Below the pieces are notes generated by a model, which was given only the letters and a program-made list of their open reading frames with translations, did no database searches and was not told the origin of the DNA. From Arenicola marina (taxonomy: Eukaryota > Annelida > Polychaeta > Arenicolidae), in contig OZ025256.1 in assembly GCA_964019135.1 (NCBI GenBank), forward strand, positions 1,736,001 through 1,800,000: a DNA stretch of 64,000 nucleotides. Direction: 5' to 3'. This document shows, piece by piece, positions 3,871 to 57,400 of the stretch (position 1 is the first letter of the stretch; each line of letters begins with the position of its first letter). The position numbers were made by a program, and so were the translations under genes.

Positions 3871-4228
3871 CCCTCCACGGTCTGCTCACAGCCCTCGCAG
3901 GGACTGTATTGTAGTGACTTCGCGTCTGGCGTCGAAGTAACTCGGCGCTCAAGTCCTTCGGTCAAAGTCTACCTATTGCATTCCTTTGGTTAAAAAGACC
4001 TTGGCATTGATTCTCCGCCGGATATGAAAACCCAACACATTGTATTGGACGAGTCAGCTAGCAAGTCTAAAACGTGTCACAACTGGAAAGCTGGAAGGAC
4101 GTGTCGATGAACAAAGCACCGAATAATGCCAAGTCTGTGGGTCCGAGGGCATTGTAGCAAATTGAACATAGACTTTTATGACTTGCTTCATTTTTATGTA
4201 CAGGATCCAAAGCACGATGCGAGGCATC
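3871..4228. other. 5' flank of the small discoidin-like gene
   Basis: This should hold the 5' UTR and promoter of the minus-strand gene starting at 3870. I see no TATA box or other clear element, and no second gene. Confidence 0.3.
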
Positions 4229-18024: not shown

Positions 18025-21000
18025 GGGCGGTAAACACCACCATTACACGTGTGGGGGGGGGGGGGGGGATAAACACCACCATTACATATAAACACCACCA
18101 TTACATATAAACACTACCATTACACGTGTGGGGGGGGGGGATAAGCACCACCATTACATATAAACACCACCATTACACGCGGGGGGGGGGGGTAAACACC
18201 ACCATTGGTAGAAATCACCATTACACGTGGGGGACGGTAAACACCACCATTACACGTGGGGAGCGGTAAACACTACCATTACACGTGGGGGACGGTAAAC
18301 ACCACCATTACACGTGGGGGACGGTAAACACCACCATTACAGGTGGGGGACGGTAAACACTACCATTACACGTGGGGGACGGTAAACACCACCATTACAC
18401 GTGGGGGGCGGTAAACACCACCATTGTTAGAAATCACCATTACACGTGGGGGACGGTAAACACTACCATTGTTAGAAATCACCATTACACGTGGGGGACG
18501 GTAAACACCACCATTACACGTGGGGGACGGTAAACACCACCATGACACGTGGGGGACGGTAAACACCACCATTACACGTGGGGGACGGTAAACACCACCA
18601 TTGTTAGAAATCACCATTACACGTGGGGGACGGTAAACACTACCATTGTTAGAAATCACCATTACACGTGGGGGACGGTAAACACCACCATTACACGTGG
18701 GGGACGGTAAACACCACCATTACACGTGGGGGACGGTAAACACCACCATTGTTAGAAATCACCATTACACGTGGGGGACGGTAAACACTACCATTGTTAG
18801 AAATCACCATTACACGTGGGGGACGGTAAACACCACCATTACACGTGGGGGACGGTAAACACCACCATTGTTAGAAATCACCATTACACGTGGGGGACGG
18901 TAAACACTACCATTACACGTGGGGGACGGTAAACACCACCATTACACGTGGGGACGGTAAACACCACCATTGTTAGAAATCACCATTACACGTGGGGGAC
19001 GGTAAACACTACCATTGTTAGAAATCACCATTACACGTGGGGGACGGTAAACACCACCATTACGCGTGGGGGGCGGTAAACACCACCATTACACGTGGGG
19101 GACGGTAAACACCACCATTGTTAGAAATCACCATTACACGTGGGGGACGGTAAACACTACCATTACACGTGGGGGACGGTAAACACCACCATTACACGTG
19201 GGGGACGGTAAACACTACCATTACACGTGGGGGACGGTAAACACCACCATTACACGTGGGGGGCGGTAAACACCACCATTACACGTGGGGGACGGTAAAC
19301 ACTACCATTACACGTGGGGGACGGTAAACACCACCATTACACGTGGGGGACGGTAAACACTACCATTACACGTGGGGGACGGTAAACACTACCATTACAC
19401 GTGGGGGACGGTAAACACCACCATTACACGTGGGGGACGGTAAACACTACCATTACACGTGGGGGACGGTAAACACCACCATTACACGTGGGGGACGGTA
19501 AACACCACCATTGTTAGAAATCACCATTACACGTGGGGGACGGTAAACACTACCATTACACGTGGGGGACGGTAAACACCACCATTGGTAGAAATCACCA
19601 TTACACGTGGGGGACGGTAAACACCACCATTACACGTGGGGGACGGTAAACACCACCATTACACGTGGGGGACGGTAAACACTACCATTACACGTGGGGG
19701 ACGGTAAACACCACCATTACACGTGGGGGACGGTAAACACCACCATTGTTAGAAATCACCATTACACGTGGGGGACGGTAAACACTACCATTACACGTGG
19801 GGAGCGGTAAACACTACCATTACACGTGGGGGACGGTAAACACCACCATTACACGTGGGGGACGGTAAACACCACCATTACGCGTGGGGGACGGTAAACA
19901 CTACCATTGTTAGAAATCACCATTACACGTGGGGGACGGTAAACACCACCATTACACGTGGGGGGCGGTAAACACTACCATTACACGTGGGGGACGGTAA
20001 ACACTACCATTACACGTTGGGAGCGGTAAACACTACCATTACACGTGGGGGACGGTAAACACCACCATTACACGTGGGGAGCGGTAAACACTACCATTAC
20101 ACGTGGGGGACGGTAAACACCACCATTACACGTGGGGAGCGGTAAACACTACCATTAAACGTGGGGGACGGTAAACACCACCATTACACGTGGGGGACGG
20201 TAAACACTACCATTACACGTGGGGGACGGTAAACACTACCATTACACGTGGGGGGCGGTAAACACCACCATTACACGTGGGGGACGGTAAACACCACCAT
20301 TACACGTGGGGGACGGTAAACACTACCATTACACGTGGGGAGCGGTAAACACTACCATTACACGTGGGGGACGGTAAACACCACCATTACACGTGGGGAG
20401 CGGTAAATACTACCATTACACGTGGGGGACGGTAAACACCACCATTACACGTGGGGGACGGTAAACACTACCATTACACGTGGGGGACGGTAAACACCGC
20501 CATTACACGTGGGGGACGGTAAACACCACCATTACACGTGGGGGACGGTAAACACCACCATTACACGTGGGGGACGGTAAACACTACCATTACACGTGGG
20601 GAGCGGTAAACACTACCATTACACGTGGGGGACGGTAAACACCACCATTACACGTGGGGGGCGGTAAACACCACCATTACACGTGGGGGGCGGTAAACAC
20701 TACCATTACACGTGGGGGGCGGTAAACACCACCATTACACGTGGGGGGCGGTAAACACCACCATTACGCGTGGGGGGCGGTAAACACCACCATTACGCGT
20801 GGGGGACGGTAAACACCACCATTGTTAGAAATCACCATTACACGTGGGGGACGGTAAACACTACCATTACACGTGGGGGACGGTAAACACTACCATTACA
20901 CGTGGGGGGCGGTAAACACCACCATTACGCGTGGGGGACGGTAAACACCACCATTGTTAGAAATCACCATTACACGTGGGGGACGGTAAACACTACCATT

Positions 21001-23130
21001 ACACGTGGGGAGCGGTAAACACTACCATTACACGTGGGGGGCGGTAAACACTACCATTACACGTGGGGGACGGTAAACACCACCATTACACGTGGGGGAC
21101 GGTAAACACCACCATTACACGTGGGAGACGGTAAACACCACCATTACACGTGGGTGACGGTAGACACCACCATTACACGTGGGGGACGGTAGACACCACC
21201 ATTACACGTGGGGGGCGGTAAACACCACCATTACACGTGGGGGACGGTAAACACCACCATTACACGTGGGGGACGGTAAACACCACCATTGCACGTGGGG
21301 GACGGTAAACACCACCATTACACGTGGGGGACGGTAAACACCACCATTACACGTGGGGGACGGTAAACACCACCATTACACGTGGGGGACGGTAAACACC
21401 ACCATTACACGTGGGGGACGGTAAACACCACCATTACACGTGGGGGACGGTAAACACCACCATTACACGTGGGGGACGGTAAACACCACCATTACACGTG
21501 GGGGACGGTAAACACCACCATTACACGTGGGGGACGGTAAACACCACCATTACACGTGGGGGACGGTAAACACCACCATTACACGTGGGGGACGGTAAAC
21601 ACCACCATTACACGTGGGGGGCGGTAAACACCACCATTACACGTGGGGGACGGTAAACACCACCATTACACGTGGGGGACGGTAAACACCACCATTACAC
21701 GTGGGGGACGGTAAACACCACCATTACACGTGGGGGACGGTAAACACCACCATTACACGTGGGGGACGGTAAACACCACCATTACACGTGGGGGACGGTA
21801 AACACCACCATTACACGTGGGGGACGGTAAACACCACCATTACACGTGGGGGACGGTAAACACCACCATTACACGTGGGGGACGGTAAACACTACCATTG
21901 TTAGAAATCACCATTACACGTGGGGGACGGTAAACACCACCATTACACGTGGGGAGCGGTAAACACCACCATTACACGTGGGGGACGGTAAACACCACCA
22001 TTACACGTGGGGAGCGGTAAACACCACCATTACACGTGGGGGACGGTAAACACCACCACTACACGTGGGGGGCGGTAAACACCACCATTACGCGTGGGGG
22101 ACGGTAAACACCACCATTGTTAGACACCACCATTACACGTGGGGTGCGGTAAACACCACCATTGGTAGAAATCACCATTACACGTGGGGGACGGTAAACA
22201 CTACCATTACACGTGGGGGACGGTAAACACTACCATTACACGTGGGGGGCGGTAAACACCACCATTACGCGTGGGGGACGGTAAACACCACCATTGTTAG
22301 ACACCACCATTACACGTGGGGGGGGGCGTTAAACACCACCATTGGTAGACTCCATCATTACACCTGGGGGATTGTAAACACTACCATTACACGTGGCGGT
22401 GGGGGCGGTAAACACCACCATTGGTAGACACCACCATTACACGCGGGGGACGGTAAACACCACCATTACACATGTGGGGAGAGCGGTAAACACCACCATT
22501 GGTAGACACCACCATTACACGTGGGGGACGGTAAACACTACCATTACACGTGAGGGGGGCGGTAAACACCACCATTGGTAGACACCACCATTACATGTGG
22601 GGGACGGTAAACACTACTATTACACGTGGGGGACGGTAAACACTACCATTACACGTGGGGGACGGTAAACACCAGCATTACACGTGGGGGACGGTAAACA
22701 CTACTATTACACGTGAGGGGGGGGGCGGTAAACACCACCTTTGTAGACACCACCATTACACGTGGGTGGGGGCGGTAAACACCACCATCACACGTTTGTG
22801 ACGGCAAACACCACCATTACACGTGGGGGGGGGTAAACACCACCATTGGTAGACATCACCATTACACGTGGGGGACGGTAAACACCACCATTACACGTGG
22901 GGGACGGTAAACACTACCATTACACGTGGGGGACGGTAAACACCACCATTACACGTGGCGGTGGGGGCGGTAAACACCACCATTGGTAGACATCACCATT
23001 ACACGTTTGTGACGGCAAACACCACCATTACACGTTTGTGACGGTAGACACCACCATTACACGTGGGTGGGGGCGGTAAACACCACCATCACACGTTTGT
23101 GACGGTAGACACCACCATTACACGCTGGTT
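18025..23130. repeat. 5.1-kb array of the 29-bp E-box minisatellite
   Basis: Roughly 170 units of 29 bp, core cacgtgggggacggtaaac, most carrying the E-box palindrome CACGTG. A variant ending attgttagaaatcaccatta recurs every few units and builds a higher-order pattern in 18400-19600. The block 21240-21880 is nearly homogeneous; the right end after about 22100 is degenerate with G-runs. Same family as 1161-3470. It sits just upstream (minus orientation) of the exon at 17689-17948, as the other array sits upstream of the paralogous exon at 616-875. Confidence 0.97.
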
Positions 23131-23540
23131 GATTTTTGTTTCTTTCCATTCACGACTTATACATAACGTTTTTCATAACGACTCCAAAAACCCGACACAT
23201 TTAATGTCCTCATTTACGGCCTTAATGCAACGTAGATGGATACAACCGTATTCTGGGCAGACGTTGTTTCCAGAACATTTTAATTAGTATTTATTAGGAG
23301 TACGTGTCTTATTTCTTCTCATTTTGCATTTACTCATGGCAACAATCCCTAGTAGCGCTGCAAAATGTGTTCTCCCCACGGTTGTCACTTTTTGAAGAAC
23401 AATCCTTTATAATAATCTGGTATGGTGAGACTAGTGGAAAGATCCCCCCCCCTCCCCCCTCCCAACGATAGGTTGAGCCCCAGACAATAAAGAAGCCACT
23501 CCCTGTCCAGGATCAGCAAACCTGATTCTGACAAAGGACC
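23131..23540. other. Short gene-free spacer
   Basis: No gene or signal-peptide exon found on the minus strand, where one would be expected for the discoidin-EGF locus. A C-rich tract lies at 23446-23463. Confidence 0.3.
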
Positions 23541-23554
23541 AGAAACCACATATC

Positions 23555-24265
23555 ATGAAGCCCTGGGACCGTATTCATAATCGCCACTTAGCGTTGAAAC
23601 TTATAAAACAGATTATTAAGAGTTGTGGAGGTTTAGATGTTAAGCAGTGTTTTGAACTTTTTGATAAGATGATAACGCCAATATTAACTTATGGAGCAGA
23701 AATCTGGGGATATGATGTTAGAGATTGTCTTGAAAGAATTCATACTAAAGATTGTAAATATGTTCTAGGTGTACCTTGGGGTACAGTTAATGCTGCTAAT
23801 TATGGAGAATGTGGGAGACTTCCTCTAAGAATAAGATGTACCATCAGTTGTATCAAGTACTGGGTTAAACTTTTGACAATGCCTGATGATATATTAACGA
23901 AGAACGCTTACAATATGCTCTACAATCGAACAGAAGTGGGAAGGACTACATGGGCATCTAAAATAAAACAATTACTTTTGATGTATGGCTTTGGTGATGT
24001 CTGGTTGGCTCAACAATTGGGTAGCCCAGAGTTATTTATCTCTTTATTCAGCCAAAGAGTTATTGACTGTGCAGGGCAGGAATGGTGTAGTAATGTTAGT
24101 AATACATATAGACTAGGAATTTATAAGGAATATAAAAGGTCTCTCATGTGTGAAGATTATTTAATATTACTCTCTAACTTTAGACTTCGCCAGGCCTTGT
24201 CAAAATTTCGATGTGGAATGTATTTTGTTAAGAAAGCATGAGGCAAATGGTGCACATGTAAATAT
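23555..24265 (+). mobile_element. C-terminal part of a LINE reverse transcriptase protein
   Basis: An open frame of 228 codons (23555-24241) matches the region after the RT domain of marine-invertebrate LINEs: FELFDKMITPILTYGAEIWG, ERIHTKDCKYVLGVPWG, GECGRLPL, VIDCAGQEWCSN and LRQALSKFRCG. The first few codons may be unrelated. After the stop, another frame reads CTCKYCLEDY, the start of the usual terminal zinc knuckle, which is cut off by the 41-bp array. The RT core and endonuclease are absent. Codon use is A/T-rich, unlike the host genes to the right. Confidence 0.8.
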
Positions 24266-27200
24266 TGCCTGGAAGACTATTGAACTAACAGGACCCTTGT
24301 CGGACATCTCACCCCGACTATTGGACTAACAGGACCCTTGTCGGACATCTCACCCCGACTATTGGACTAACAGGACCCTTGTCGGTCATCTCACCCCGAC
24401 TATTGAACTAACAGGACCCTTGTCGGACATCTCACCCCGACTATTGGACTAACAGGACCCTTGTCGGTCATCGCACCCCGACTATTGGACTAACAGGATC
24501 CTTGTCGGTCATCGCACCCCGACTATTGGACTAACAGGACCCTTGTCGGTCATCTCACCCCGACTATTGGACTAACAGGACCCTTATCGGTCATCTCACC
24601 CCGACTATTGGACTAACAGGACCCTTGTCGGTCATCTCACCCCGACTATTGGACTAACAGGACCCTTGTCGGTCATCGCACCCCGACTATTGGACTAACA
24701 GGACCCTTGTCGGTCATCGCACCCCGACTATTGGACTAACAGGACCCTTGTCGGTCATCTCACCCCGACTATTGGACTAACAGGACCCTTGTCGGACATC
24801 TCACCCCGACTATTGGACTAACAGGACCCTTGTCGGTCATCTCACCCCGACTATTGGACTAACAGGACCCTTGTCGGACATCTCACCCCGACTATTGGAC
24901 TAACAGGACCCTTGTCGGTCATCTCACCCCGACTATTGGACTAACAGGACCCTTGTCGGACATCTCACCCCGACTATTGGACTAACAGGAGCCTTGTCGG
25001 TCATCGCACCCCGACTATTGGACTAACAGGACCCTTGTCGGTCATCTCACCCCGACTATTGGAGTAACAGGTCCTTTGTCGGACATCTCACCACACCTAT
25101 TGGACCAATAGGACCCTTATCGGTCATCTCACCCCGACTATTGGACTAACAGGACCCTTGTCGGACAGCTCACCCCGACTATTGGACTAACAGGACCCTT
25201 GTCGGTCATCTCACCCCGACTATTGGACTAACAGGACCCTTGTCGGTCATCTCACCCCGACTATTAGACTAACAGGACCCTTATCGGTCATCTCACCCCG
25301 ACTATTGGACTAACCGGACCCTTGTCGGACATCTCACCCCGACTATTGGACTAACAGGAGCCTTGTCGGTCATCGCACCCCGACTATTGGACTAACAGGA
25401 CCCTTGTCGGTCATCTCACCCCGACTATTGGACTAACAGGACCCTTGTCGGACATCTCACCCCGACTATTGGACTAACAGGAGCCTTGTCGGTCATCGCA
25501 CCCCGACTATTGGACTAACAGGACCCTTGTCGGTCATCTCACCCCGACTATTGGAGTAACAGGTCCTTTGTCGGACATCTCACCACACCTATTGGACCAA
25601 TAGGACCCTTATCGGTCATCTCACCCCGACTATTGGACTAACAGGACCCTTGTCGGACATCTCACCCCGACTATTGGACTAACAGGACCCTTATCGGTCA
25701 TCTCACCCCGACTATTGGACTAACAGGACCCTTGTCGGTCATCTCACCCCGACTATTGGACTAACAGGACCCTTGTCGGACATCTCACCCCGACTATTGG
25801 ACTAACAGGAGCCTTGTCGGTCATCGCACCCCGACTATTGGACTAACAGGACCCTTGTCGGTCATCTCACCCCGACTATTGGAGTAACAGGTCCTTTGTC
25901 GGACATCTCACCACACCTATTGGACCAATAGGACCCTTATCGGTCATCTCACCCCGACTATTGGACTAACAGGTCCTTTGCCGGACATCTCACCCCGACT
26001 ATTGGACTAACAGGACCCTTGTCGGTCATCTCACCCCGACTATTGGACTAACAGGACCCTTGTCGGTCATCTCACCCCGACTATTGGACTAACAGGACCC
26101 TTGTCGGTCATCTCACCCCGACTATTGGACTAACAGGACCCTTGTCGGTCATCTCACCCCGACTATTGGACTAACAGGACCCTTGTCGGTCATCTCACCC
26201 CGACTATTGGACTAACAGGTCCTTTGCCGGACATCTCACCACGCCTATTGGACCAATAGGACCCTTATGGTCATCTCACCCCGACTATTGGACTAACAGG
26301 ACCCTTGTCGGTCATCTCACCCCGACTATTGCACTAACATGACCCTTATCGGTCATCTCACCCCGACTATTGGACTAACAGGACCCTTGTCGGTCATCTC
26401 ACCCCGACTATTGGACTAACAGGTCCTTTGCCGGACATCTCACCCCGACTATTGGACTAACAGGACCCTTGTCGGTCATCTCACCCCGACTATTGGACTA
26501 ACAGGTCCTTTGCCGGACATCTCACCACGCCTATTGGACCAATAGGACCCTTATGGTCATCTCACCCTGACTATTGGACTAACAGGACCCTTGTCGGTCA
26601 TCTCACTCAAACTATTGGACTAACAGAACCCTTGTCGGTCATCTCACCCCGACTATTGGACTAACAGGTCCTTTGTCGGACATCTCACTCAAACTATTGG
26701 ACTAACAGAACCCTTGTCGGTCATCTCACCCCGACTATTGGACTAACAGGACCCTTGTCGGTCATCTCACCCCGACTATTGGACTAACAGGACCCTTGTC
26801 GGTAGTCTCACCCCGACTATTGGACTAACAGGTCCTTTGTCGGACATCTCACCACACCTATTAGACCAATAGGACCCTTATCGGTCATCTCACCCCGACT
26901 ATTGGACTAACAGGACCCTTATCGGTCATCTCACCCCGACTATTGGACTAACAGGACCGTTGTCGGTCATCTCACCCCGACTATTGGACTAACAGGTCCT
27001 TTGTCGGACATCTCACCACACCTATTGGACCAATAGGACCCTTATCGGTCATCTCACCCCGACTATTGGACTAACAGGACCCCTGCCGGTCATCTCACTC
27101 AAACTATTGGACTAACAGAACCCTTGTCGGTCATCTCACCCCGACTATTGGACTAACAGGACCCTTATCGGTCATCTCACCCCGACTATTGGACTAACAG

Positions 27201-28300
27201 GTCCCTTGTCGGTCATCTCACTCCAACTATTGGACTAACAGGACCCCTGCCGGTCATCTCACTCAAACTATTGGACTAACAGGACCCTTATCGGTCATCT
27301 CACCCCGACTATTGGACTAACAGGACCCTTGTCGGTCATCTCACCCTGACTATTGGACTAACAGGACCCTTGTCGGTCATCTCACTCAAACTATTGGAGT
27401 AACAGAACCATTGTCGGTCATCTCACCCCGACTATTGGACTAACAGGACCCTTGTCGGTCATCTCACTCAAACTATTGGAGTAACAGAACCATTGTCGGT
27501 CATCTCACCCTGACTATTGGACTAACAGGACCCTTGTCGGTCATCTCACTCAAACTATTGGAGTAACAGAACCATTGTCGGTCATCTCACCCCGACTATT
27601 GGACTAACAGAACCCTTGTCGGTCATCTCACCCCGACTATTGGACTAACAGGACCCTTGTCGGTCATCTCACTCAAACTATTGGAGTAACAGAACCATTG
27701 TCGGTCATCTCACCCTGACTATTGGACTAACAGGACCCTTGTCGGTCATCTCACTCAAACTATTGGAGTAACAGAACCATTGTCGGTCATCTCACCCCGA
27801 CTATTGGACTAACAGAACCCTTGTCGGTCATCTCACCCCGACTATTGGACTAACAGGACCCTTGTCTGTCATCTCACCCCGACTATTGGACTAACAGGAC
27901 CCTTATCGGTCATCTCACCCCGACTATTGGACTAACAGGACCGTTGTCGGTCATCTCACCCCGACTATTGGACTAACAGGACCCTTGTCGGTCATCTCAC
28001 ACCGACTATTGGACTAACAGGACCCTTGCCGGTCATCTCACACCGACTATTGGACTAACAGGAACCTTGCCGGTCATCTCACCCTGACTATTGGACTAAC
28101 AGGACCCTTGTCGGTCATCTCACTCAAACTATTGGAGTAACAGAACCATTGTCGGTCATCTCACCCCGACTATTGGACTAACAGGACCCTTGTCGGTCAT
28201 CTCACTCAAACTATTGGAGTAACAGAACCATTGTCGGTCATCTCACCCCGACTATTGGACTAACAGGACCCTTGCCGGTCATCGCACTCGGATTATTAGA
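24262..28300. repeat. 4-kb array of 41-bp units
   Basis: About 98 units of 41 bp, core ccccgactattggactaaca followed by ggacccttgtcggtcatctca. Variants (tcactcaaactattgg, ccacacctattggacc) recur in blocks, showing higher-order duplication. It begins directly at the broken zinc knuckle of the LINE piece. Confidence 0.97.
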
Positions 28301-28867
28301 ATAACATGACTGTAGTCGGCAATCGCCCGTTAATATATTGCGCTGAAATAGGCTGGAGAGGCGGCGTCACTAGGAGGGTCGAAGGAATATCGCCTTTATA
28401 TTGTGGCTGCATGAAACAAGTGCAACTGAGAAGCCAATATTGTTTCAATCTTGGAAATGTCAATGTTGGAAACAACTAAGCTGTTCATTATCCTATGTGC
28501 GCAAGCGGCGGTCCGTGATTGCCGATACTGTCAACTAATGTTGACGAAAAATATGTCAGCTGGAATGTCAATTTACTGTAAAACCATAACAAATATGTCA
28601 TTGCGCATTCATCTGTGGTGTCCTTTCGATATTCCTTCAAGTTTGTTGTGCTTTAATTTTTAATACTATCAATTGCACTTTGAGAGCATTTAAGTCTTTT
28701 TGCAATGCTGTCCGTAACTGAATCGTGTCAGCTCGCCGACGATGACTGTAGCTGAAAAGCACGGTTGACCGTTTGACGCAACATGTCTTTTAAATTGTAT
28801 TTTACCATATGCCATTTTTACGGGACTAATATGTCATGTCATTTTGCCGTGAGCGCGACAGCTCACG
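28301..28867. other. Gene-free stretch
   Basis: Between the 41-bp array and a SINE. A 70-codon open frame at 28451-28663 has no recognisable features. Confidence 0.3.
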
Positions 28868-37522: not shown

Positions 37523-39740
37523 TTAACTAGAAAACCTGGCTGAGTTGCGGATAAATAAATGAACTGCCCTAAATATAGCGACGCTGTCTTCAAAGCACAG
37601 CTCGGGGCTACCGAACAGCAACAATTCACAAAGGATATTAAATTCATTCCTGCTTTCTGGATATATATTGATACCATACAATTTTAAAAACGATAGATCT
37701 GACATTAGGATTTCGCGATGCATCTCATACTCTGGACATTTTAACAGATAGTGAAGTTCGTCTTCAGATTTCCCGTTACATTTGCTACAAGTAGGATCCT
37801 TAATAAAACCTATCTTTTGCGAGGTCCATTAAGTGCGCTCAGGCCTAAGCGGAGTCTGGTGTGGTAAACAGCCTCGGGTGTGTTAAAATAGTTATACAAT
37901 TCGTTGCCGGGGTAAAAAACTTCCTATACAGTGACTTAAAAAGAGATAATGACGTTGCTAGTTTAACACACTGAGGCAAGGATTTCCACTCTCTGATTGA
38001 GTTCCAAACGAATGAATTCTTGTAATAGTTTTTTCTTATATGCGGGATTCTTATGTCAGTCGAGTTCCGTAGTGAGTATACTGATGACTGGGAAACCAAA
38101 TCAGGTAATAGAGAAGACATCGGAGAGAGACTATTAACCATTTTATACAAAATGCACAGACTTAGGTATTTACGTCTGAGAGCGAGTAGTTCAATGCCAA
38201 CTTCTTTCAGCAGTTTGGTATGTGACGTACTCTTGTATGCCCCAGTAACAGACAAAAGGGCATGCCGCTGTACACTTTACAACCTCTCTCATTGGGTTTT
38301 GGTAAGATTGCCATGAAAGACAGCAGGACAGTATTCCATTTTAGGTCAAACATGTTTTATAAACATTTATTTCAGTTCTGCGTCCTATCTGTTAGGAAGA
38401 CGCCTTAGTAGAGCAACAGATTTCTCGGCCCTAATAATAGTGTTATTTATATGCAGGTCCCAGCACATTGAGTCTGATAGGGTTACACCAAGGTGACAGT
38501 GATTTCTTACTTGCCGGAGTTTAGAATTGTCCAGATATAGATCGAGCTCATTTGGTCGCGATAACTTTTTGCTAAATACCATGTATTCAGTTTTATCAGG
38601 ATTGAACGCTACCCGCCACTGTTTGGCCCACTGAGATAGTCGTTCTAGATCACGAATAATGATTTTGACATCGTTATTAAAATCTAGTACAAAAAATAGA
38701 GACGTGTCATCTGCAAATAAACAAGCCTCGCATTCAAGGCCCTCGACAATATCGTTAACGAAAATGAGAAACAGGAGCGGCCCCAGTATAGAGCCCTGAG
38801 GCACTTCGGCATTTATATATTTCCACTCTGAGGTGCAACCCTCTATGACCACTCTCTTCCGCTTACAGTACAGGTAATTTTTGAGCCACCTCAACAGATC
38901 TCCTTTGATACCCAATGATTCGACTTTATGCAATAAACCCTCGTAGTACACCTTATCAAATGCTTTTGACACATCAAGAAAAACCATAACTGAATCGCAA
39001 TTGTGCTCTAACGATTCGTAAATTTTATGAGTAATATATATCAGCTAATTTGTAGTGGAATCTGGCTTTTTAAAGCCGGCATTACGCCATGTCATGAGAT
39101 TATTACTGAGGCAAAATTCATATAACTCGTTATAAACTACCCGTTCCATAACCTTACCCACGCATGAGAGCAGAGATATGGGGCGATAATTTCTATTCGT
39201 TGCTTGTCCTTTTTCTTAAAAACTGGCGTAACATTGGCATCTTTCCATTGAGCAGGAAATGTAAAATCACACATGCTTTTGTTAAACAGGTTGGAGAGCG
39301 ACTCAGATATAACTTCCGCGGTCTCCTTTAACATCCTATTGCTAATATTGTCAGGGCCATTTGCTTTGTTTGGATCAAGTTGTCTCAAGACATCGAAAAT
39401 TTTGACAGGAGTAAAGCTTATGGTGCATAAGGTGGGCATTCTACTAAAGTTGAGTGGGGGAAGTGCGAACCCCTCTTCAACACTCGGGAGCGTGGAATTT
39501 GACGCACAATACTCATTAAAGACATTTGCCTTTGATAGTGCGTCCACATGGCTCACCCCATCATGGATGGTAGATGGTATGCCTTTATCTACCTTACCAG
39601 AGAAAAAACACTTCACAATTTTGTGATATTCTTTGCTTACCGTTGCGGGATCCTGCAGTCGCTCAGTGAGCCTACAGAAATATTGTTGTTGTTTGGCTTT
39701 GTCGATTTCCAAATTTCCCAAATACCTTGTACATCAGATC
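37523..39740 (-). mobile_element. Decayed non-LTR retrotransposon, RT to zinc knuckle
   Basis: On the minus strand: pre-RT and RT start (LDPNKANGPDNISNRMLKE, FPAQWKDANVTPVFKKKDKQ) at 39721-39137; RT core (VFLDVSKAFDKV, VPQGSILGPLLFLIFVND, FADDTSLF) at 38987-38385; thumb and C-terminal region (NSFVWNSIREWKSLP) at 38255-37845; then CxxC..H..C knuckle (CNGKSEDELHYLLKC) and end at 37523. The endonuclease domain is absent, so it is 5' truncated near 39740. The coding frame shifts at least twice (about 39140-38990 and 37845-37720, and probably near 38300), so it is dead. Features fit the CR1/Jockey group; the clade is not certain. It lies antisense to, and just upstream of, the hydrolase gene, ending about 20 bases before that gene's splice acceptor. 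Confidence 0.88.
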
Positions 39741-39761
39741 AACATATTTCATTTTACCCAC

Positions 39762-39775
39762 AGTGATTGGTGACA
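39762..39775 (+). promoter_or_regulatory. Splice acceptor and start context of the hydrolase gene
   Basis: A pyrimidine-rich tract ending acccacag lies immediately before 39763, followed by tgattggtgaca and ATG at 39776. The codon TGA at 39764 is in frame upstream, and the ATG has A at -3 and G at +4, so this start is favoured. The acceptor implies a non-coding first exon farther upstream, with the LINE lying in the 5' intron. Confidence 0.5.
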
Positions 39776-41696
39776 ATGGGCGGCCGAGTGCGCATGTCCG
39801 GTAGCCATGGCATCCACTGCGGCAAGAACTGGGCCGTGGCGGTCTGTGTGCTGGCGGCTCTATGCGCGTCTGTGGCCTTGGCCTTCACCTTGACGGCGCG
39901 GCTCTACCTACGCAACTACTACCACGCGGCGCACGTGGCAGGGGTCACGTGTTTCCTCTGCGTGTTCGTCGTCAGTCACCATTTCTTCCGGGTGTCCTAC
40001 TCGCTGGGCTGTCACCTGCGCCATTACGTGACGGTGCAGCTCCTGCTCCACCTCGCCTGGCTGGCGGGGAGCCTGGTCGCCGCCGTGGCCTACAGCTTAC
40101 TGGCCGCCTCCAGCCTACACGCCAATTACGATTACATCGGGGCGCTGACCTTCGCCTGGGCGGGCGTCCTCTTCTGCGTCTACCTGACCTCGCTGACCTT
40201 GGCGGCCCGCTGTACACAGTGGTATTCAAGCTATGACCTGGGCACCGGGTCTGCTTACACGTTGTCCCGCGCTGAGACCAATGGTAAGGGGCTACCACAC
40301 AGGCAAGCACAATTAGGTGATGCACAAGCATTTAAGGTGGTAATACATCAGTCATTAAATAATTTTATGTTTTAATTGTAGTTTTAATTGTGGGTGTATG
40401 GACGTATTTACGACGAGTGTCCTCTATTTGGCACACGGTGCTGATCATCTTCTTGCAGGAACTCATGGTGTCCAATGCAACCGCGGGTCACGTGATCACG
40501 CGTGCTGCAGCCCCGGCCGGTGTCTTCACTGCTGGAACGTCGTCTTCGGGATCGGGTACTTCCTGTTTCATGTCCTCTTTCTGCTCGTCGTCGTCCTCAC
40601 GGCGTACCACCCGTGCGCCGCCCTGGATGACGTCACGCGCCACCGCCCGGATGACGCCATGTACACGGTGACCGTGCCCGGCCACCGCGCACTGGCCCTC
40701 TACATGCGTTGTCGTGGCAACGGCTCCGAAACCCTGGTGTACGAGAACGGCCTTGGCGGGGTGGCTTACATGGAGTGGGACTTCATCCCGCGTTACCTGG
40801 GCGACCGCTACACGGTCTGTGTGTACGACCGCCGGGGGTACGGCTGGAGCGAGGCATATGAGCACGACAACCTGGGCATGGAGGAGCAATGGGCCAAGCC
40901 CAGCGCGGTCTTCCTCAGGGAGCTGGTCATACAGTCCGGACTGCACACGCCCTGCTACTTCATGGGCCACAGCTACGGCGGACACCACATCGCGTTCTTC
41001 GCGGCCATGTACCCAGATATGGTTAAAGGATTAATCTTCTTGGACTCTAGTTCCTTTGCCGTCTTAGATATACTCGAATCCATTCTGGAGGTCATCGCTA
41101 ATTTCCAGCCTCTCGGGTTGATCCGGATTGCCTTGGAGAGCGGTCTGTTCGACTATAAAACCCTCATGGACGACTTAATCTCCTTCAAGGATCTCTCACC
41201 GGAAACGGAAATGCTGACGCTTGCCGTCATGCGCAGTGGCACGTACTTCACGGCGTTCATGCGCGAGTGGCGCGTCCTCAACCGTCACGTGGAGGTCAAG
41301 ACCGACACCGTCATCAGAGCGGGAAATAATGATACGGCTTCACAGGGGCTGGAGCAAACGCCGGGGACGGTGGTGCGTCGGCGCTACCCGGCGGCCGAGC
41401 TGGCGGTCCTGCTGGCCCGCGAGGGGGACATCCCCAAGCCGGTGTTGGTGATAGACGCTGGCGGAAGGCACTGGGACTTCCCCGGGCAGCGCTTCAGTCT
41501 GTACGACGAGGACCTATTCCACATGAGTGTACCGGGCTCGTCCCACACCTCGCTGGTCATGAGTTCCCCCCACGCCACAGTGGCGGCCGACCTCATCCAC
41601 TACTTCGTAGAGCTGCAACAGGGCGGCATTACAGTGGACATGTTCAGGGACTACACCCGAGAACTGACTCAGCCACAGCCGCAGGAGCTGAACTAG
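39776..41696 (+). CDS. Multi-pass membrane protein with C-terminal alpha/beta hydrolase
   Basis: Two coding exons, 39776-40283 and 40459-41696, joined through ATG|GTAAGG and TTGCAG|GA in phase 1, giving 581 aa. Residues 1-169 (exon 1) hold four hydrophobic helices at about 19-41, 52-72, 86-112 and 118-142. A fifth lies at about 195-217 (VVFGIGYFLFHVLFLLVVVL). A hydrolase domain follows from about 237: an oxyanion-type NGLGG, the strand VCVYDRRGYGWSE, nucleophile elbow GHSYGG with Ser341, acid Asp502 in VLVIDAGG and His532 in GSSHTSLV. The full triad suggests an active hydrolase or esterase; the substrate is unknown. The membrane part would anchor the enzyme; which side the domain faces was not worked out. 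G+C content and third-position G/C are much higher than in the surrounding DNA. No membrane-helix family was recognised for the N-terminus. Confidence 0.85.
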
Positions 41697-41704
41697 CGGC
41701 AAGA

Positions 41705-42435
41705 GCGGAATCAGCGCCTTGCTAAGAGTCGGATCAGCACCTGACGAACGGTGGGATCAGCGCCTGGCCAACAGTGGGATCAGAGCGTGACCAACATTAG
41801 GATCAGCGCCTGACTAACAGTCGGATCAGCGCCTGACCAACAGTGGAATCAGCGCCTGACCAACAGTGGAATCAACGCCTGACCAACAGTGGGATCAGCG
41901 CCTGACCAACAGTGGGATCAGCGCCTGACCAACACTGGGATCAGCGCCTGACCAACAGTGGGATCAGCGCCTGACCAACAGTGGGATCAGCGCCTGACCA
42001 AAAGTGGGATCAGAGCCTGACCAACATTGGGATCAGCGCCTGACCAACAGTGGGATCAGCGCCTGATCAACAGTGGGATCAGCGCCTGACCAACAGTAGG
42101 ATCAGCCTCTCACCAACAGTGGGATCAGCGCCTGACCAACAGTTGGATCAGCGCCTGACCAACAGTGGGATCAGCGCCTGACCAACAGTGGGATCAGCGC
42201 CTCACCAACAGTGGGATCAGCGCCTGACCAACAGTGGGATCAGCGCCTGACCAACAGTGGGATCAGCCTCTCACCAACAGTGGGATCAGCCTCTCACCAA
42301 CAGTGGGATCAGCGCCTGACCAACAGTGGGATCAGCGCCTGACCAACAGTGGGATCAGCCTCTCACCAACAGTGGGATCAGCCTCTCACCAACAGTGGGA
42401 TCAGCTTCTGACCAACACTGGGATCAGCGTCGAAT
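41705..42435. repeat. 23-bp minisatellite in the 3' UTR or flank of the hydrolase gene
   Basis: About 31 units of 23 bp, core gggatcagcgcctgaccaac, starting within 10-30 bases of the hydrolase stop codon. If the polyA signal at 42724 is used, the whole array is transcribed in the 3' UTR. Confidence 0.95.
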
Positions 42436-42723: not shown

Positions 42724-42729
42724 AATAAA
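42724..42729 (+). terminator. Candidate polyA signal of the hydrolase gene
   Basis: AATAAA about 1.03 kb after the stop codon, the first clear one I see past the 23-bp array. Confidence 0.4.
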
Positions 42730-45408: not shown

Positions 45409-48400
45409 TCACGTAACTTTTACGAAACACACTGCGTTCTCGTCGTTGTTGGGGTTCGCACCACCACCGAACACGACGGAGACCACCACCATGTCTCTGC
45501 AGTTCTTCATCGCCTTGCGGATCCGCTTGTCTAACTTCTGTAGAGTGCGCTGCAACAACAAATCCACACATATATATATAGTAATCTGCTGCCACGACCG
45601 TAAACATTTACTTCACGACAATACAGTGACACCCACAACGACAGTGACACAGGCGACGAGTGACACTTGCGACGACAGCGACAGTGACAGCGACCTACAT
45701 AAATCGTTCTTCCAAGTAAGGGCGAACCATTGTTTCAGCATAGCTCACGTATTACTCCCGCCTAACGTTTAATACAATAATACGTTTCGTGGGTTCTTAC
45801 ATGGAAGATAGGAGCCCTACATACTACATACTAGTACACCCGATGGCTGCATTTCGCCACCATTAGCTACATATTCTTTAGGCGTGGCAGCCTGGAGCCC
45901 CGCATCTCTTGTTATGTGCCCCAAACCTAAACCGCCTTATTGTTTGTAGTGACGTCAGTACCCCCCCCCCTCCTCCTCCTCACCCCACCCTAAAGCAACA
46001 ACTCACCTTATCCGGTTTGTGGCTTGCGCTCTTGTCCCCTGCGCTCTCGCCCCCTAGTCTCGGGGTCTCCTGTAGCGTGGCCCACACCACGTGGTGACTC
46101 TCCAGGGCCAGACGACACTCCCGGCTACAGGATTTGGCGTTCTTCTGCGGCAGGTACGTGATGGAGGCGGCGACGTCATCGCTGAAGGTCGGCGTGACCT
46201 TGGGTCCGCCGCCCCAGGTTTGAAGGTCGGCCTCGGCTCCCAGCACAGCGACTGCCAAGAACATATCAACACGTTGATTGGACGAACGTCGTTACAAAGG
46301 TTAAAGGCCAAAGGTCACGGAACAGCACATAGTGTACATCGGTGTACACAAGGTTAGTATATAACTTTTTACTTTAGTGTACACACTACCTTATGTATGC
46401 AAACTTCTTTGGCTGCGAGCGCGAGCTCCATCGGTTTATATCGTAGCTCACGCATTACTTACCATTCGTGTCGTGATATTGTACAAGCGGGGACACCCTT
46501 GTATCAAGAACGATTAGGTCCTACGTCTACTCGTGACAGTGGCGACAGCTTACCGTCGCGAAAACAGTAACACAATATGGTATTCTGTATATAGACTACA
46601 TAGTAGGCCGTAGATATGCTATATAGTAAGTCATATAGTAAGCTATATAGTAAGTCATATAGTAAGCTACATAGTAAGTCATATAGTAAGCTATATAGTA
46701 AGTCATATAGTAAGCTATATAGTAAGTCATATAGTAAGCTATATAGTAAGTCATATAGTAAGCTATATAGTAAGTCATATAGTAAGCTATATAGTAAGTC
46801 ATATAGTAAGTCATATAGTAAGCTATATAGCAAGTCATATAGTAAGTCATATAGTAAGCTATATAGTAAGTCCTATAGTTAGCTATATAGTAAGTCATAT
46901 AGTAAGCTATATAGTAAGTCATATAGTAAGCTATATAGTAAGCTATATAGTAAGTCCTATAGTAAGCTATATAGTAAGTCATATAGTAAGCTATATAGTC
47001 AGTCCTATAGTAAGCTATATAGTAAGTCATATAGTAAGCTATATAGTTAGCTATATAGTAAGTCATATAGTAAGCTATATAGTAAGTCATATAGTAAGCT
47101 ATATAGTAAGTCCTATAGTAAGCTATATAGTAAGTCATATAGTAAGCTATATAGTAAGTCCTATAGTAAGCTATATAGTAAGTCATATAGTAAGCTATAT
47201 AGTAAGCTATATAGCAAGTCATATAGGAAGTTATATTGTAAGTCATATAGTAAGCTATATAGTAAGTCATATAGTAAGCTGTATATCATATCATGGTTCA
47301 TGTTCACAAAGACGGATCCTTAGTGGTAATCGGTAAAAAAAAAATGACGAAAATCGCGAAAATCGATTTTCGGCCAAAGAGCGTGTCTTTCTGAACGTGC
47401 TGAGCCAAACCGCGACGTTTTACGATGGGTATTAATTGAAACTATGGCTATTTTTTTTTATTTCAGTAGCTTGACTATGGCATATGCTGAGTCCCTTGGT
47501 TTGAACTTCAAACTGAACAACAAAAGCGTCGCTATGGCGTCAAGACGTGGCCTAGAAATTAGATCAGCCCAGGTGAACGGCGTTACTAATGTCTCTTTCT
47601 GTTTTATTGCACCTACTGTTGAACTCATAGTAAGGTTAGCGGTGGCCTAAGTAGGTGAACATGAATTAACTGCACTATTTGCTCCAGTCACGTTAACAAC
47701 TTCGACGTAATTTGACGCCCACATGCCCCTCTGCGCAAAAAAAAGGCACCCACGCCAGTTGTCACTTGATATACCGTATAACCGGAAGTCACGCTAACGT
47801 ATAATAACAGAACAAATAGCCTACACATAACTGGGATGTCCTACAATGCGCAATCAGCGGGCAATATGCACGCTGTAGGAGCTATGTATGGTTAGCGTTA
47901 GGGTTAGAGCTAGCTAGGGTAAGCATCGGTTAGGGTTATGGGTCATGTGCGCGCTACTGGCCCTATTTTGAGTAACTGCAAACTGTTTTCACCGATGAGA
48001 ACGGAATTAGAGGTCAACCCGTGGTTTGGGCCCGTACCGTCACGATGACGTCGCGTGACGGATCTATTGCCCGCCAATTTAATGCCAGATTAGAGCCTAA
48101 GTGTACATGCACTTTTTGAAGAGCGATTGTTTTGACTCAATATTAATGAAGCTATGAATATTGCCTTTTATTTAATAAGACATTTATTGTGACGTCACAT
48201 GACGTCGTTCACAAAAATGCTTAAGATGGCTTTTATTTCTTTAATATACCTACTTATGTATTCGGGTCATGATTGCTATTGTCAAAGTTACTGAAAATGA
48301 ATCAAGCCCAACGTTTCGTAAGAGCACGTTAGATAAGACATCATTTTTGACGCATACTTAAAACAGTTACGCACCCCACAAGTTGTCCCTGAACACGACG

Positions 48401-51400
48401 TGTAACATCATATAAACCAGTCACCATACCTTATAATAGCTGAGTAATAGCCTACGTAAGTTGTGCGATGTCAAGACGTCATGGTGACGTCATGGCGTGA
48501 CCCACGACAACGTCCAAGTAGCAATGCAACAAAGTTTACTGTCACAACACATTGGATTAATACAGATAAACCTTCCCCAATCTGTGTCCAATCTGTTACT
48601 CGTGTGCCACCATGCATGGTCGATTGGTTTATCTGTATTATAGTAGAATTACACCGTCACCTGTTATACACTCAGATGTCTCTGCATATAGGTGATCCTT
48701 AGCAAGTTGTGAGTAGTATAATAGAACATCATACCGATAGCTTGATGTTAAATGTGTCAAAAAGTGACAGGGGTCATTTAGCGCGTTTTTTCCAAAACCT
48801 ATAACCTCATTTCGCTCGGAAAGTATTAGGCATCAAAAAATTATCAATACCCCAAACTGCGCCTCAAAAGGTAGCACATTCTGAAACTTATTCGAGATCT
48901 TCAACGCCAATATTAACGGAGATATAAGCGTTGTTAATTTTTTTGTTCTAACAAAATCTATGTGATCATGACCTTTGACCTTTCGACTTGCGTGACGAGT
49001 ATGTTGTAGCCTTACTGCGTAGCTATTAGATACTAAAGACCAGAAACCGATGTATGCAGCCGTTAGGCCACAAGGAGACTGACATACGAACCAGCAAACA
49101 AGACCGACCGACATATGACGAAAATTGTACAATTTTCGTCATAACAACCGTGTTGGTGAGTACGGGAATGGGATCAGTCCCAGGACCACGACTCTACCTT
49201 TCTTGTCCGCCTCTGCCGGGAGGCTCAACAAGTTACGGAACATGTTGACCCCCGGCCGTTGGAAGAAGAATGCTTTCTGCTTCTTATGGGCTTCCGGCGT
49301 CGTCTCGGCTTTAACCGCGCCGCTCTTGGCGCCCGCATCCTGCTTGGGAGGAGTGGAATCCGGTTTCAGTCTCTTCTGCTGCGGCTCATCAGATTCTTCC
49401 TCTGACGACGACGCGGAGTCACTTGAGCTGTCGACTGGTCTCTTGTTTCCGGTGTTTGGACGCTCCTCTGGGCTCTCCTCGCCGCTCGCCTCGCCGCTCG
49501 TGACGTCACAAGAGTCCCCTGCTGCCTTGATCTCGCGCGCCGTGTCGTGCACCTGTTTGTAACCTCCCAGGATGACGTCACCAAACGTGGGACCTGTACA
49601 GACACAACAAAAACCAGCTGTCATACAATAAGCCCACTCACAATATCGAAGTGGTATCCCTGAGACATTAACATCTTTATTATCCAATAGCCATCGCTCG
49701 TTGTTACCACGTGGTCTCCAGACGAGTTAGTATATAATACTCGTGTGCCGGCCTTCATGCTGTACCAACCACGCACGATCATACATGTTATGTAACGGAG
49801 ACCTGATCCATAGGCATTCACCAGATCCAGATCGACACTCACGAGATCCAGATAGACACTCACCAGATCCAGATACACACTCACAAGATCCAGACAGAGA
49901 CTCACAAGATTCAGATAGACACTCACCAGATCCAGATAGACACTCACCAGATCCAGATAGGCACTCACCAGATCCATATATATATTCACAAGATGCAGAT
50001 ACATAATCACCAGATCCAGGTATACATAATATGTATAAGATCCAGATAGATCCTGACCAGATCCAACTATACATTCACCAAAATGGACAAGAAAAAAACC
50101 CGTTTTTCCCGAGATAACACTCACTGGATTCACACGATCCACCTTTCCGATCCAGACACAACCCCTCACGAGTTCCATACAGGACACAGACCAGATCCAC
50201 AGTAGACGCCTCAGATCCAGGAATTACCGTTTTTGAGTTTGAGCAGGACGAGTTCCATAGTGGCCTCCGCGTCTTCCAAGGGACTGTGACCTTGTCTTCC
50301 CTGCTGGATGTGTTTTCTGTAATACAACCGTCTCGCCGTTATAGAGTGTCCTTTTTATATTAATTTCCCACGATGCAGTTGTTATCCCAAGCAGTCGTTT
50401 TCTCAGTCTGGAATCACCGGGGTCACTAGTCACCGGGGTCAGTGTGCTCACTGTGGTCACCGTGGTCACTGGGGTCAGTGGGGTCACTGGGGTCAGTGAG
50501 GTAACTGGGGTCAGTGAGGTCACTGGGTTGCCGGGGTCACTGGGGGTCATTATAGTCACTGGAATCACCGGGGTCACTGGGGTCACTAGTCACCGGGGTC
50601 ACCGAGGTCACTGGAATCACCGGGGTCACCGGGGTCACTAGAGTCACTGAAATTACCGGGGTCACTGAGATCACTAGTCACCGTGGGGTCACTGGGGTCA
50701 CTAGTCACTGGGGTCACTGGAATCACCGGGGTCACCGAGGTCACTGGAATCACCGGGGTCACCGGGGTCACTAGAGTCACTGGAATCACCGGGGTCACTG
50801 AGATCACTAGTCACCGGGGTCACTGGGGTCACTAGTCACTGGGGTCACTAGTCACCGGGGTCACTAGTCACTGGGGTCAATGAAATCACCGGGGTCACTA
50901 GTCACCGGGGTCACCGAGGTCACTGGAATCACCGGGGTCACCGAGGTCACTAGTCACCGGGGTCACCGAGATCACTGGAATCACCGGGGTCACCGGGGTC
51001 ACTAGTTACCGGGGTCACCGAGGTCACCGGGGTCACTAGTTACCGGGGTCACCGAGGTCACTGGAATCACCGGGGTCACTGGAATCACCGGGGTCACTGA
51101 GGTCACTAGTCACCGGGGTCACCCGTTACCGGGGTCATCGAGTCATTGGAATTGAAAATGAACATCTATCTATTTTTTCGACCAACGAGATGGGAGTATT
51201 CCAGGTTACGGCGCTCCGCCATATTGGATGGTACCCACGGGTATTCCGTGTTACGGCGCTCCGCCATATTGGATGGTGCCCACGGATATTCCTAGTTACG
51301 GCGCTCCGCCATGTTGGATGGTGCCCACGGGTATTCCTAGTTACGGCGCTCCGCCATGTTGGATGGTACCCACGGGTATTCCGTGTTACGGCGCTCCGCA

Positions 51401-54400: not shown

Positions 54401-57400
54401 GCCACTTCGATATAGGGGTATATGATCCATCTTTATTCACAGCGTCCTAATCACGCTGGTCCATCTTTATCCATCAGTGTCCTAATCACGCTGGTCCATC
54501 TTTATTCACAGCGTCCTAATCACGCTGGTCCATCTTTATTCACAGCGTCCAAATCACGCTGGTCTATTTTTATTCAGCGTCCAATCACGCTGGTCCATCT
54601 TTATTCACAGCGTCCAAATCACGCTGGTCCATCTTTATTCACAGCGTCCTATTCACGCTGGTCCATCTTTATTCACAGCGTCCTAATCACGCTGGTCCAT
54701 CTTTATTCACAGCGTCCTAATCACGCTGGTCCATCTTTATTCACAGCGTCCTAACCACGCTGGTCTATTTTTATTCACAGCGTCCAATCACGCTGGTCCA
54801 TCTTTATTCACAGCGTCCTAATCAGGCTGGTCCATCTTTATTCACAGCGTCCTAATCACGCTGGTCCATCTTTATTCACAGCGTCCTAATCACGCTGGTC
54901 TATTTTTATTCACAGCGTCCAATCACGCTGGTCCATCTTTATTCACAGCGTCCAAATCACGCTGGTCCATCTTTATTCACAGCGTCCTTTTCACGCTGGT
55001 CCATCTTTATTCACAGCGTCCTAATCACGCTGGTCCATCTTTATTCACAGCGTCCTAATCACGCTGGTCCATCTTTATCCACAGCGTCCTAATCACGCTG
55101 GTCCATCTTTATTCACAGCGTCCTAATCACGCTGGTCCATCTTTATTCACAGCGTCCTAATCACGCTGGTCTATTTTTATTCACAGCGTCCAATCATGCT
55201 GGTCCATCTTTATTCACAGCGTCCAAATCACGCTGGTCCATCTTTATTCACAGCGTCCTATTCACGCTGGTCCATCTTTATTCACAGCGTCCTAATCACG
55301 CTGGTCCATCTTTATTCACAGCGTCCTAATCACGCTGGTCCATCTTTATAAACAGCGTCCTAATCACGCTGGTCCATCTTTATTCACAGCGTCCTAATCA
55401 CGCTGGTACATCTTTATCCATCAGCGTCCTAACCACGCTGGTCTATTTTTATTCACAGCGTCCAATCACGCTGGTCCATCTTTATTCACAGCGTCCTAAT
55501 CACGCTGGTCCATCTTTATTCACAGCGTCCTAATCACGCTGGTCCATCTTTATCCACAGCGTCCTAACCACGCTGGTCTATTTTTATTCACAGCGTCCAA
55601 TCACGCTGGTCCATCTTTATTCACAGCGTCCTAATCACGCTGGTCCATCTTTATTCACAGCGTCCTAATCACGCTGGCCCATCTTTATCCACAGCGTCCT
55701 AATCACGCTGGTCCATCTTTATTCACAGCGTCCTAATCACGCTGGTCCATCTTTATTCACAGCGTCCAATCACGCTGGTCCATCTTTATTCACAGCGTCC
55801 TAATCACGCTGGTCCATCTTTATTCACAGCGTCCTAATCACGCTGGTCCATCTTTATCCATCAGCGTCCTAACCACGCTGGTCTATTTTTATTCACAGCG
55901 TCCAATCACGCTGGTCCATCTTTATTCACAGCGTCCTAATCACGCTGGTCCATCTTTATTCACAGCGTCCTAATCACGCTGGTACATCTTTATTCACAGC
56001 GTCCTAATCACGCTGGTCCATCTTTATTCACAGCGTCCTAATCACGCTGGTCCATCTTTATTCACAGCGTCCAATCACGCTGGTCCATCTTTATTCACAG
56101 CGTCCTAATCACGCTGGTCCATCTTTATTCACAGCGTCCTAATCACGCTGGTCCATCTTTATCCACAGCGTCCTAATCACGCTGGTCCATCTTTATTCAC
56201 AGCGTCCTAATCACGCTGGTCCATCTTTATTCACAGCGTCCTAATCACGCTGGTCCATCTTTATTCACAGCGTCCTAATCACGCTGGTCCATCTTTATTC
56301 AGAGCGTCCTAATCACGCTGGTCCATCTTTATCCACAGCGTCCTAATCACGCTGGTCCATCTTTATTCACAGCGTCCTAATCACGCTGGTCCATCTTTAT
56401 TCACAGCGTCCTAATCACGCTGGTCCATCTTTATTCACAGCGTCCTAATCACGCTGGTCCATCTTTATCCATCAGCGTCCTAACCACGCTGGTCTATTTT
56501 TATTCACAGCGTCCAATCACGCTGGTCCATCTTTATTCACAGCGTCCTAATCACGCTGGTCCATCTTTATTCACAGCGTCCTAATCACGCTGGTCCATCT
56601 TTATCCACAGCGTCCTAACCACGCTGGTCTATTTTATTCACAGCGTCCAATCACGCTGGTCCATCTTTATTCACAGCGTCCTAATCACGCTGGTCCATCT
56701 TTATTCACAGCGTCCTAATCACGCTGGTCCATCTTTATTCACAGCGTCCTAATCACGCTGGTCCATCTTTATTCACAGCGTCCTAATCACGCTGGTCCAT
56801 CTTTATTCACAGCGTCCAATCACGCTGGTCCATCTTTATTCACAGCGTCCTAATCACGCTGGTCCATCTTTATTCACAGCGTCCTAATCACGCTGGTCCA
56901 TCTTTATCCACAGCGTCCTAATCACGCTGGTCCATCTTTATCCACAGCGTCCTAATCACGCTGGTCCATCTTTATCCACAGCGTCCTAATCACGCTGGTC
57001 CATCTTTATTCACAGCGTCCTAATCACGCTGGTCCATCATTATTCACAGCGTCCAATCACGCTGGTCCATCTTTATTCACAGCGTCCTAATCACGCTGGT
57101 CCATCTTTATTCACAGCGTCCTATTCACGCTGGTCCATCTTTATCCACAGCGTCCTAATCACGCTGGTCCATCTTTATTCACAGCGTCCTAATCACGCTG
57201 GTCCATCTTTATTCACAGCGTCCTAATCACCATCGTTAAATCCAGTCTTATTGCCTTACCATTTCACAGTCGACGGCGAACAAGGGGCTGACAGGAGTCA
57301 GCTCTGTGTACTTGTCTTGACTGTAGACGAAATCAGGATCCGTCTCTGGGGAGAACATACGAGATATTGGGTAAGTTTATATCGTATATCAGCCCATCAG

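Follow-up and report, generated by a model that had tools for sequence, protein, structure and literature searches.

The window analysed here, a stretch of 64,000 nucleotides from the annelid Arenicola marina (C9:1736001-1800000), contains what is probably an animal gene, of which the genome yielded no second copy, for a serine hydrolase that would cross the membrane five times and hydrolyse hydrophobic esters near it. The predicted protein joins four hydrophobic helices, encoded by a first exon, to a fifth helix and an alpha/beta-hydrolase, encoded by a second exon (Table 1).

Table 1. Features of the predicted gene, in window coordinates
Feature	Position	Strand	Remarks
Exon 1	39776..40283	+	Codons 1-169 and base 1 of codon 170; encodes hydrophobic helices 1-4
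Intron	40284..40458	+	175 bases, GT-AG, phase 1
Exon 2	40459..41696	+	Remainder of codon 170, residues 171-581, and stop codon; encodes predicted helix 5 and the alpha/beta-hydrolase
Fifth membrane helix (predicted)	40533..40607	+	Approximately residues 195-219; pairs with the anchor at the N terminus of bacterial relatives
Hydrolase core	40731..41588	+	Residues 261-546; Pfam Abhydrolase_1 and Abhydrolase_6
Ser341, putative nucleophile in GHSYGG	40971..40973	+	Identical in 11 of 11 aligned relatives
Asp365 in LIFLD, rival candidate for catalytic acid	41043..41045	+	Read as end of strand beta-6
Asp502 after VLVI, proposed catalytic acid	41454..41456	+	Read as strand beta-7; 30 residues before His532
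His532, putative catalytic base	41544..41546	+	Identical in 11 of 11 aligned relatives
AATAAA/ATTAAA, possible polyadenylation signal	42724..42729	+	Only one between the stop codon and 43500

Gene model and genomic surroundings

The initial annotation proposed two exons joined in frame in phase 1, and its coordinates proved exact: splice signals are present and the joined frame gives 581 amino acids without an internal stop. The start ATG at 39776 lies in the context ACAATGG and is preceded by an in-frame stop at 39764-39766, and the stop codon TAG occupies 41694-41696. The donor (ATG/GTAAGG, with the intron starting at 40284) and the acceptor (CTTGCAG, ending at 40458) have matching phases, the phase-1 junction falling after codon 169. 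By eye, the intron contains CTGAT, which resembles a branch motif, and is rich in pyrimidines ahead of the AG; its GC content is 39%, versus mostly 50-80% in the exons when read in 30-base steps. On these signals, the fusion of exon 1 to exon 2 by predicted splicing is plausible.

With regard to exon 1, no Pfam family is above its cut-off (best E = 0.76), so its coding status rests on composition. The open frame alone is weak coding evidence: stops are likewise absent from 42 of 2000 base-shuffled versions of exon 1. When exon 2 is used to train a codon model, exon 1 scores +0.275 nats per codon in its own frame and -0.17 to -0.57 nats per codon in the other five frames. This score is reached by one of the 720 control frames taken from the rest of the window, and that frame lies within a repeat array (46618-47278). 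The codon bias changes close to both predicted splice sites. In the frame of exon 1, GC3 starts at 0.80-0.90 (39776-40225), falls to 0.57 across the donor, and is down to 0.30 at 40316-40405. In the frame of exon 2, it is 0.30 in 40371-40460, 0.70 in 40461-40550, and 0.80-0.90 up to 41000, with a later drop to 0.53 at 41001-41090.

The gene is adjoined by a remnant of a LINE-type reverse transcriptase (38385-39714, minus strand; RVT_1 E = 1.1e-23). When 39551-39850 was used as a query, at least 36 other places in the genome matched; none of these matches passes 39714 and 29 stop exactly there, which sets the boundary of the repeat 61 bases before the ATG. The repeat is apparently young, judging from 25 of the 36 other places matched, which are 96-97% alike. 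Beyond the repeat there may be a first exon of the 5' UTR; by eye, TTTTACCCACAG, ending at 39763, is acceptor-like. Downstream, beginning 14 bases past the stop codon, a 23-base unit is repeated in tandem about 31 times (41710-42429), and the possible polyadenylation signal at 42724 would put this array in the 3' UTR. Many long minisatellites with units of 20-45 bases occur between 1178 and 57230 (e.g. 4227-5783, 19129-21899, 24275-28310, and 54426-57230). The window also holds a 195-aa open frame with an acidic, Ser-rich middle (49142-49726, minus strand), which could be an exon of another gene, and a 254-aa open frame (23477-24238, plus strand), which by eye resembles the C terminus of a LINE reverse transcriptase; neither has a Pfam match at E up to 1.

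The 867-Mb assembly of 762 contigs was searched for copies of the gene. The full protein returned two candidates, both the gene itself, and neither a second copy nor an intronless retrocopy; the N-terminal 235 aa returned, at E up to 10, three candidates and two matches, both again the gene itself. At least 19 matches to PF00561 were obtained, one being the gene itself (18 of 195 candidates scored), and none of the other PF00561 loci found matches the protein better than E = 0.055. Within this partial PF00561 list, no close paralogue was found. A 400-aa open frame elsewhere in the genome (L010, 1405-2607, minus strand) is a hydrolase with, by eye, a resemblance to ABHD1/3 and is not closely related to the window protein.

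A 15,942-base contig (C762; L033, L034) carries COX1 (Pfam E = 5.9e-127) with 13 TGA codons inside. Its gene order, read from translations and for protein genes only, is cox1, cox2, atp8, cox3, nad6, cob, atp6, a long gap, nad5, nad4L, nad4, a long gap, nad1, nad3, and nad2, all on one strand. This order shows all four changes given for annelids in PMC2639372: nad6/cob after cox3, atp6 between cob and nad5, nad5 before nad4L/nad4, and nad3 between nad1 and nad2. The presence of all mitochondrial genes on one strand is common among annelids, according to PMC8245539. The gene order makes an annelid host very probable.

Hydrolase domain and its relatives

The initial proposal of an alpha/beta-hydrolase behind a multi-pass N terminus was supported, the hydrolase by Pfam matches. 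Abhydrolase_1 (PF00561) matches residues 261-375 with E = 3.2e-14 (53.6 bits versus a cut-off of 25.8) and Abhydrolase_6 matches residues 273-546 with E = 1e-10, both within exon 2, and a nucleophile elbow of the G-x-Ser-x-G type is present at 339-344. An alignment, A3, was made of 12 of the 15 sequences, L004, L028, and L042 being set aside by our choice as more distant; the identity of the protein to the relatives in A3 is 16-22%. Ser341 and His532 are invariant across all 12 rows, and their assignment as putative nucleophile and base is well supported. His532, read as the His after beta-8, follows a strand that is not seen in a reliable model.

The triad of the initial annotation stood in part: Ser341, Asp502, and His532 are where they were claimed to be, but the role of Asp502 as the acid is rivalled by the conserved Asp365. 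Asp502 has a normal spacing but corresponds to a gap in 11 of 11 relatives of A3, in a poorly aligned region, and its assignment as the catalytic acid is uncertain. An Asp or Glu is found 25-33 residues before the His in 12 of the 14 relatives, but 69% of all 9-residue windows in these proteins contain one as well; at this distance an acid is absent in L028 and L043. At the column of Asp365, Asp is present in 11 of 11 relatives of A3 and in 13 of 14 sequences of the wider set, L028 having Glu. A comparative study of the fold (PMC7034887) distinguishes group A, in which the catalytic acid follows beta-7, from group B, in which it is found where beta-6 ends. By this division, Asp365 would be a group-B acid, and Asp502 would have the group-A spacing. 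Asp is also present at the place equivalent to Asp365 in solved sequences aligned by the A3 profile search, and we take the enzymes concerned to belong to group A.

The architecture was compared with that of 14 bacterial relatives. Seven of them have one N-terminal helix (L025, L026, L027, L030, L031, L043, and L045), and the anchor helix is absent in the other seven by the same hydropathy measure. None of the 14 has more than one N-terminal peak at a hydropathy of 1.5; L043 has a second peak at 183-201, which lies inside its hydrolase. The bacterial anchor pairs with helix 5, and the sequence downstream pairs with the juxtamembrane stretch and the hydrolase. As helix 5 aligns with the bacterial anchor, the unusual part is limited to the four helices of exon 1. 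The description of the whole N terminus as unfamiliar therefore holds for these four helices, which stay below the Pfam cut-offs, but not for helix 5. Judging from these alignments, helix 5 and the hydrolase together form an arrangement already known, and only exon 1 is unusual.

Relatives were also found on plasmids, where 47 of 72,556 records match a 325-aa hydrolase query and none covers 80% of it; 40 of the 47 were listed and 11 were fetched. The scan of genome contigs gave one relative (L004) from 18 stretches. Among 392 genomes sampled from the phylum of L004, two match at E <= 1e-8, a limit at which the genome that holds L004 gives no match. An alignment that included L004 looked misaligned at its C-terminal end and was not used. 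No match was found in phages, and no viral contig was confirmed with window-based or bacterial-relative queries. In NCBIfam, 15 families were found at E <= 1, none near its cut-off, the best scoring 35 bits versus 430.

The A3 profile matched 308 sequences of solved structures at E <= 1e-5. The best 60 of these include ABHD6 (7OTS, E = 3.7e-16) and 6I8W (E = 9.7e-12), which we take to be PlaF and whose match spans profile positions 18-165, including part of the anchor region; these 60 also hold many soluble hydrolases with equal or better scores. The functions of the solved relatives are mixed, comprising esterases, epoxide hydrolases, C-C bond hydrolases, and KAI2-type proteins from plants, a range too wide to define the substrate class. 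ABHD6, like the window protein, is a membrane-anchored animal serine hydrolase of the same fold, as indicated by the profile match, and it has one N-terminal helix; it is absent among the solved matches listed for the single-sequence search.

PlaF (PA2949) of Pseudomonas aeruginosa resembles the window protein in having an N-terminal membrane helix leading into an alpha/beta-hydrolase, a Ser nucleophile, and a C-terminal His. In contrast to the five helices of the window protein, of which only the fifth corresponds, PlaF has one membrane helix and lacks a bundle like that of exon 1. In the PlaF paper, which mentions 6I8W three times, the enzyme is a phospholipase A with a transmembrane and a juxtamembrane helix joined to the alpha/beta-hydrolase, with fatty-acid ligands and the triad S137/D258/H286 (PMC9132575). 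D258 lies 28 residues before its His and is equivalent to Asp502 by spacing, not by alignment. Among the 40 plasmid matches listed, the lowest E (tblastn E = 2e-14) is that of a Gloeothece protein (WP_041934163.1, L025), which is 35% identical over 36% of the 325-aa hydrolase query. It shares with the window protein VCxYDRxGYGWS, GHSxGG, and the conserved Asp after them, and its anchor aligns with helix 5. This protein has 334 aa and one helix; the window protein has four further helices and an insertion ahead of the last strands.

Membrane helices and topology

Four helices in exon 1 and a fifth in exon 2 had been claimed, and Kyte-Doolittle hydropathy with a 19-residue window gives five peaks in the places expected: 21-39, 53-71, 93-111, and 126-144 in exon 1 and 197-215 in exon 2, with scores of 1.65-2.67. 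A sixth peak at 361-379, the weakest (1.60), was rejected as a membrane helix, as it sits in the hydrolase core. With limits set by hand, the helices of exon 1 span residues of about 20-42, 50-71, 85-112, and 120-145. The two exons were also folded separately with AlphaFold2, each without an alignment, and both models are too poor for testing anything: the model of exon 1 has helices at 11-44, 48-76, 82-110, and 117-168 with low confidence (mean pLDDT 56), and the model of exon 2 has a mean pLDDT of 36, its best-predicted part being helix 5 (blocks at pLDDT 74 and 91 within residues 191-210).

Nine Lys/Arg residues are found in the N terminus and in loops 2-3 and 4-5, versus three on the opposite side, in a count that uses hand-set helix limits and takes only the first 20 residues after helix 5 for the opposite side; three of the nine charges come from long loop 4-5 together with the N-terminal tail. 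Under the positive-inside rule, such a distribution would place the N terminus in the cytosol, and we infer that the C-terminal enzyme is exposed on the lumenal or extracellular face. The sequons at N257 and N460, within the hydrolase, agree with this topology, under which the sequon at N169 is on the cytosolic side. Five Cys are located between residues 176 and 194, in the predicted cytosolic loop ahead of helix 5, and could be candidates for acylation. Helix 1 could alternatively serve as a signal peptide.

A transmembrane N-terminal domain fused to an alpha/beta hydrolase is described for Abhydrolase_9 and Abhydrolase_9_N in PMC11878206. The window protein is similar in having a transmembrane N-terminal part and an alpha/beta hydrolase but, unlike these proteins, has no match to PF10081 or PF15420 at E up to 10 with filters on. 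A search of open-licence literature with narrow terms, covering titles and the starts of abstracts, did not find the architecture of the window protein, which is no evidence of its being unpublished. We would not be surprised if orthologues were already deposited as unnamed 'AB hydrolase-1 domain-containing' proteins.

Proposed function and alternative readings

Because of the fold and the active-site residues, the chemistry would be that of a usual acyl-enzyme mechanism, as in one-helix relatives such as the bacterial PlaF and the animal ABHD6. The substrates would most likely be carboxylesters of lipids or of other hydrophobic compounds, at the outer or lumenal leaflet. Helix 5 would be the old anchor, to which exon 1 would add a four-helix bundle that may hold, position, or regulate the enzyme and may also contribute to its stability. 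The lipid- or signal-processing role suggested at the outset may apply by analogy with the relatives. It is also possible, although we propose it only tentatively, that exon 1 encodes a four-helix membrane domain of its own, not described before, which in the animal lineage became fused to an old esterase with one helix. This domain would control the enzyme, for example by delivering lipid to the active site or by regulating it in response to a membrane signal, and the fusion would then represent a new architecture among animal membrane hydrolases.

The orientation of the protein could be reversed, with the N terminus outside and the hydrolase in the cytosol, as for a depalmitoylase or monoacylglycerol lipase at the inner leaflet, comparable to DAGL. 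DAGL alpha and beta, which belong to the Lipase_3 family, have four membrane helices followed by a cytosolic serine lipase domain and provide a precedent for a multi-helix N terminus before a cytosolic hydrolase, and the five Cys between residues 176 and 194 would fit either side. The excess of positive charges, nine versus three, favours the hydrolase-out orientation and makes the reversed one rather doubtful. Unlike DAGL, the window protein has no match to Lipase_3 (PF01764) at E up to 10 with the HMMER filters on; the bacterial relative L025 has a sub-threshold Lipase_3 match (E = 0.01).

Two readings that we regard as improbable concern the unity of the gene and the function of the fold. 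The locus could comprise two adjacent genes or alternative transcripts, exon 1 being a separate four-helix protein that ends in the intron (stop at 40373-40375) and the hydrolase starting separately upstream of 40459. The open frames of both halves do extend into the intron (39767-40375 and 40359-41696), which also contains an ATTAAA at 40354 and, where the second frame runs through it, an ATG at 40398 that is in frame. Against this, both frames have a low GC3 from one splice site to the other, the phases of donor and acceptor match, and the genome of the worm yielded no separate homologue for either half. The protein could likewise be a receptor or binding protein, in which the hydrolase fold is kept for ligand binding and the multi-pass part passes the signal on. 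Its multi-pass N terminus and uncertain catalytic acid are consistent with such a role, as are the plant KAI2-type proteins, which are karrikin/strigolactone receptors, among the best solved matches of the single-sequence search. Against this reading, these matches are generic to the fold, the KAI2-type receptors are themselves hydrolases, and Ser341, His532, and a conserved Asp are all present.

The membrane serine hydrolase encoded by joined exons thus remains our preferred reading. A fusion that is both real and conserved would extend the membrane serine hydrolases of animals by a multi-pass architecture whose enzyme probably faces outward. Its chemistry would be nothing unusual, and the four-helix domain would be the part with a role to test.
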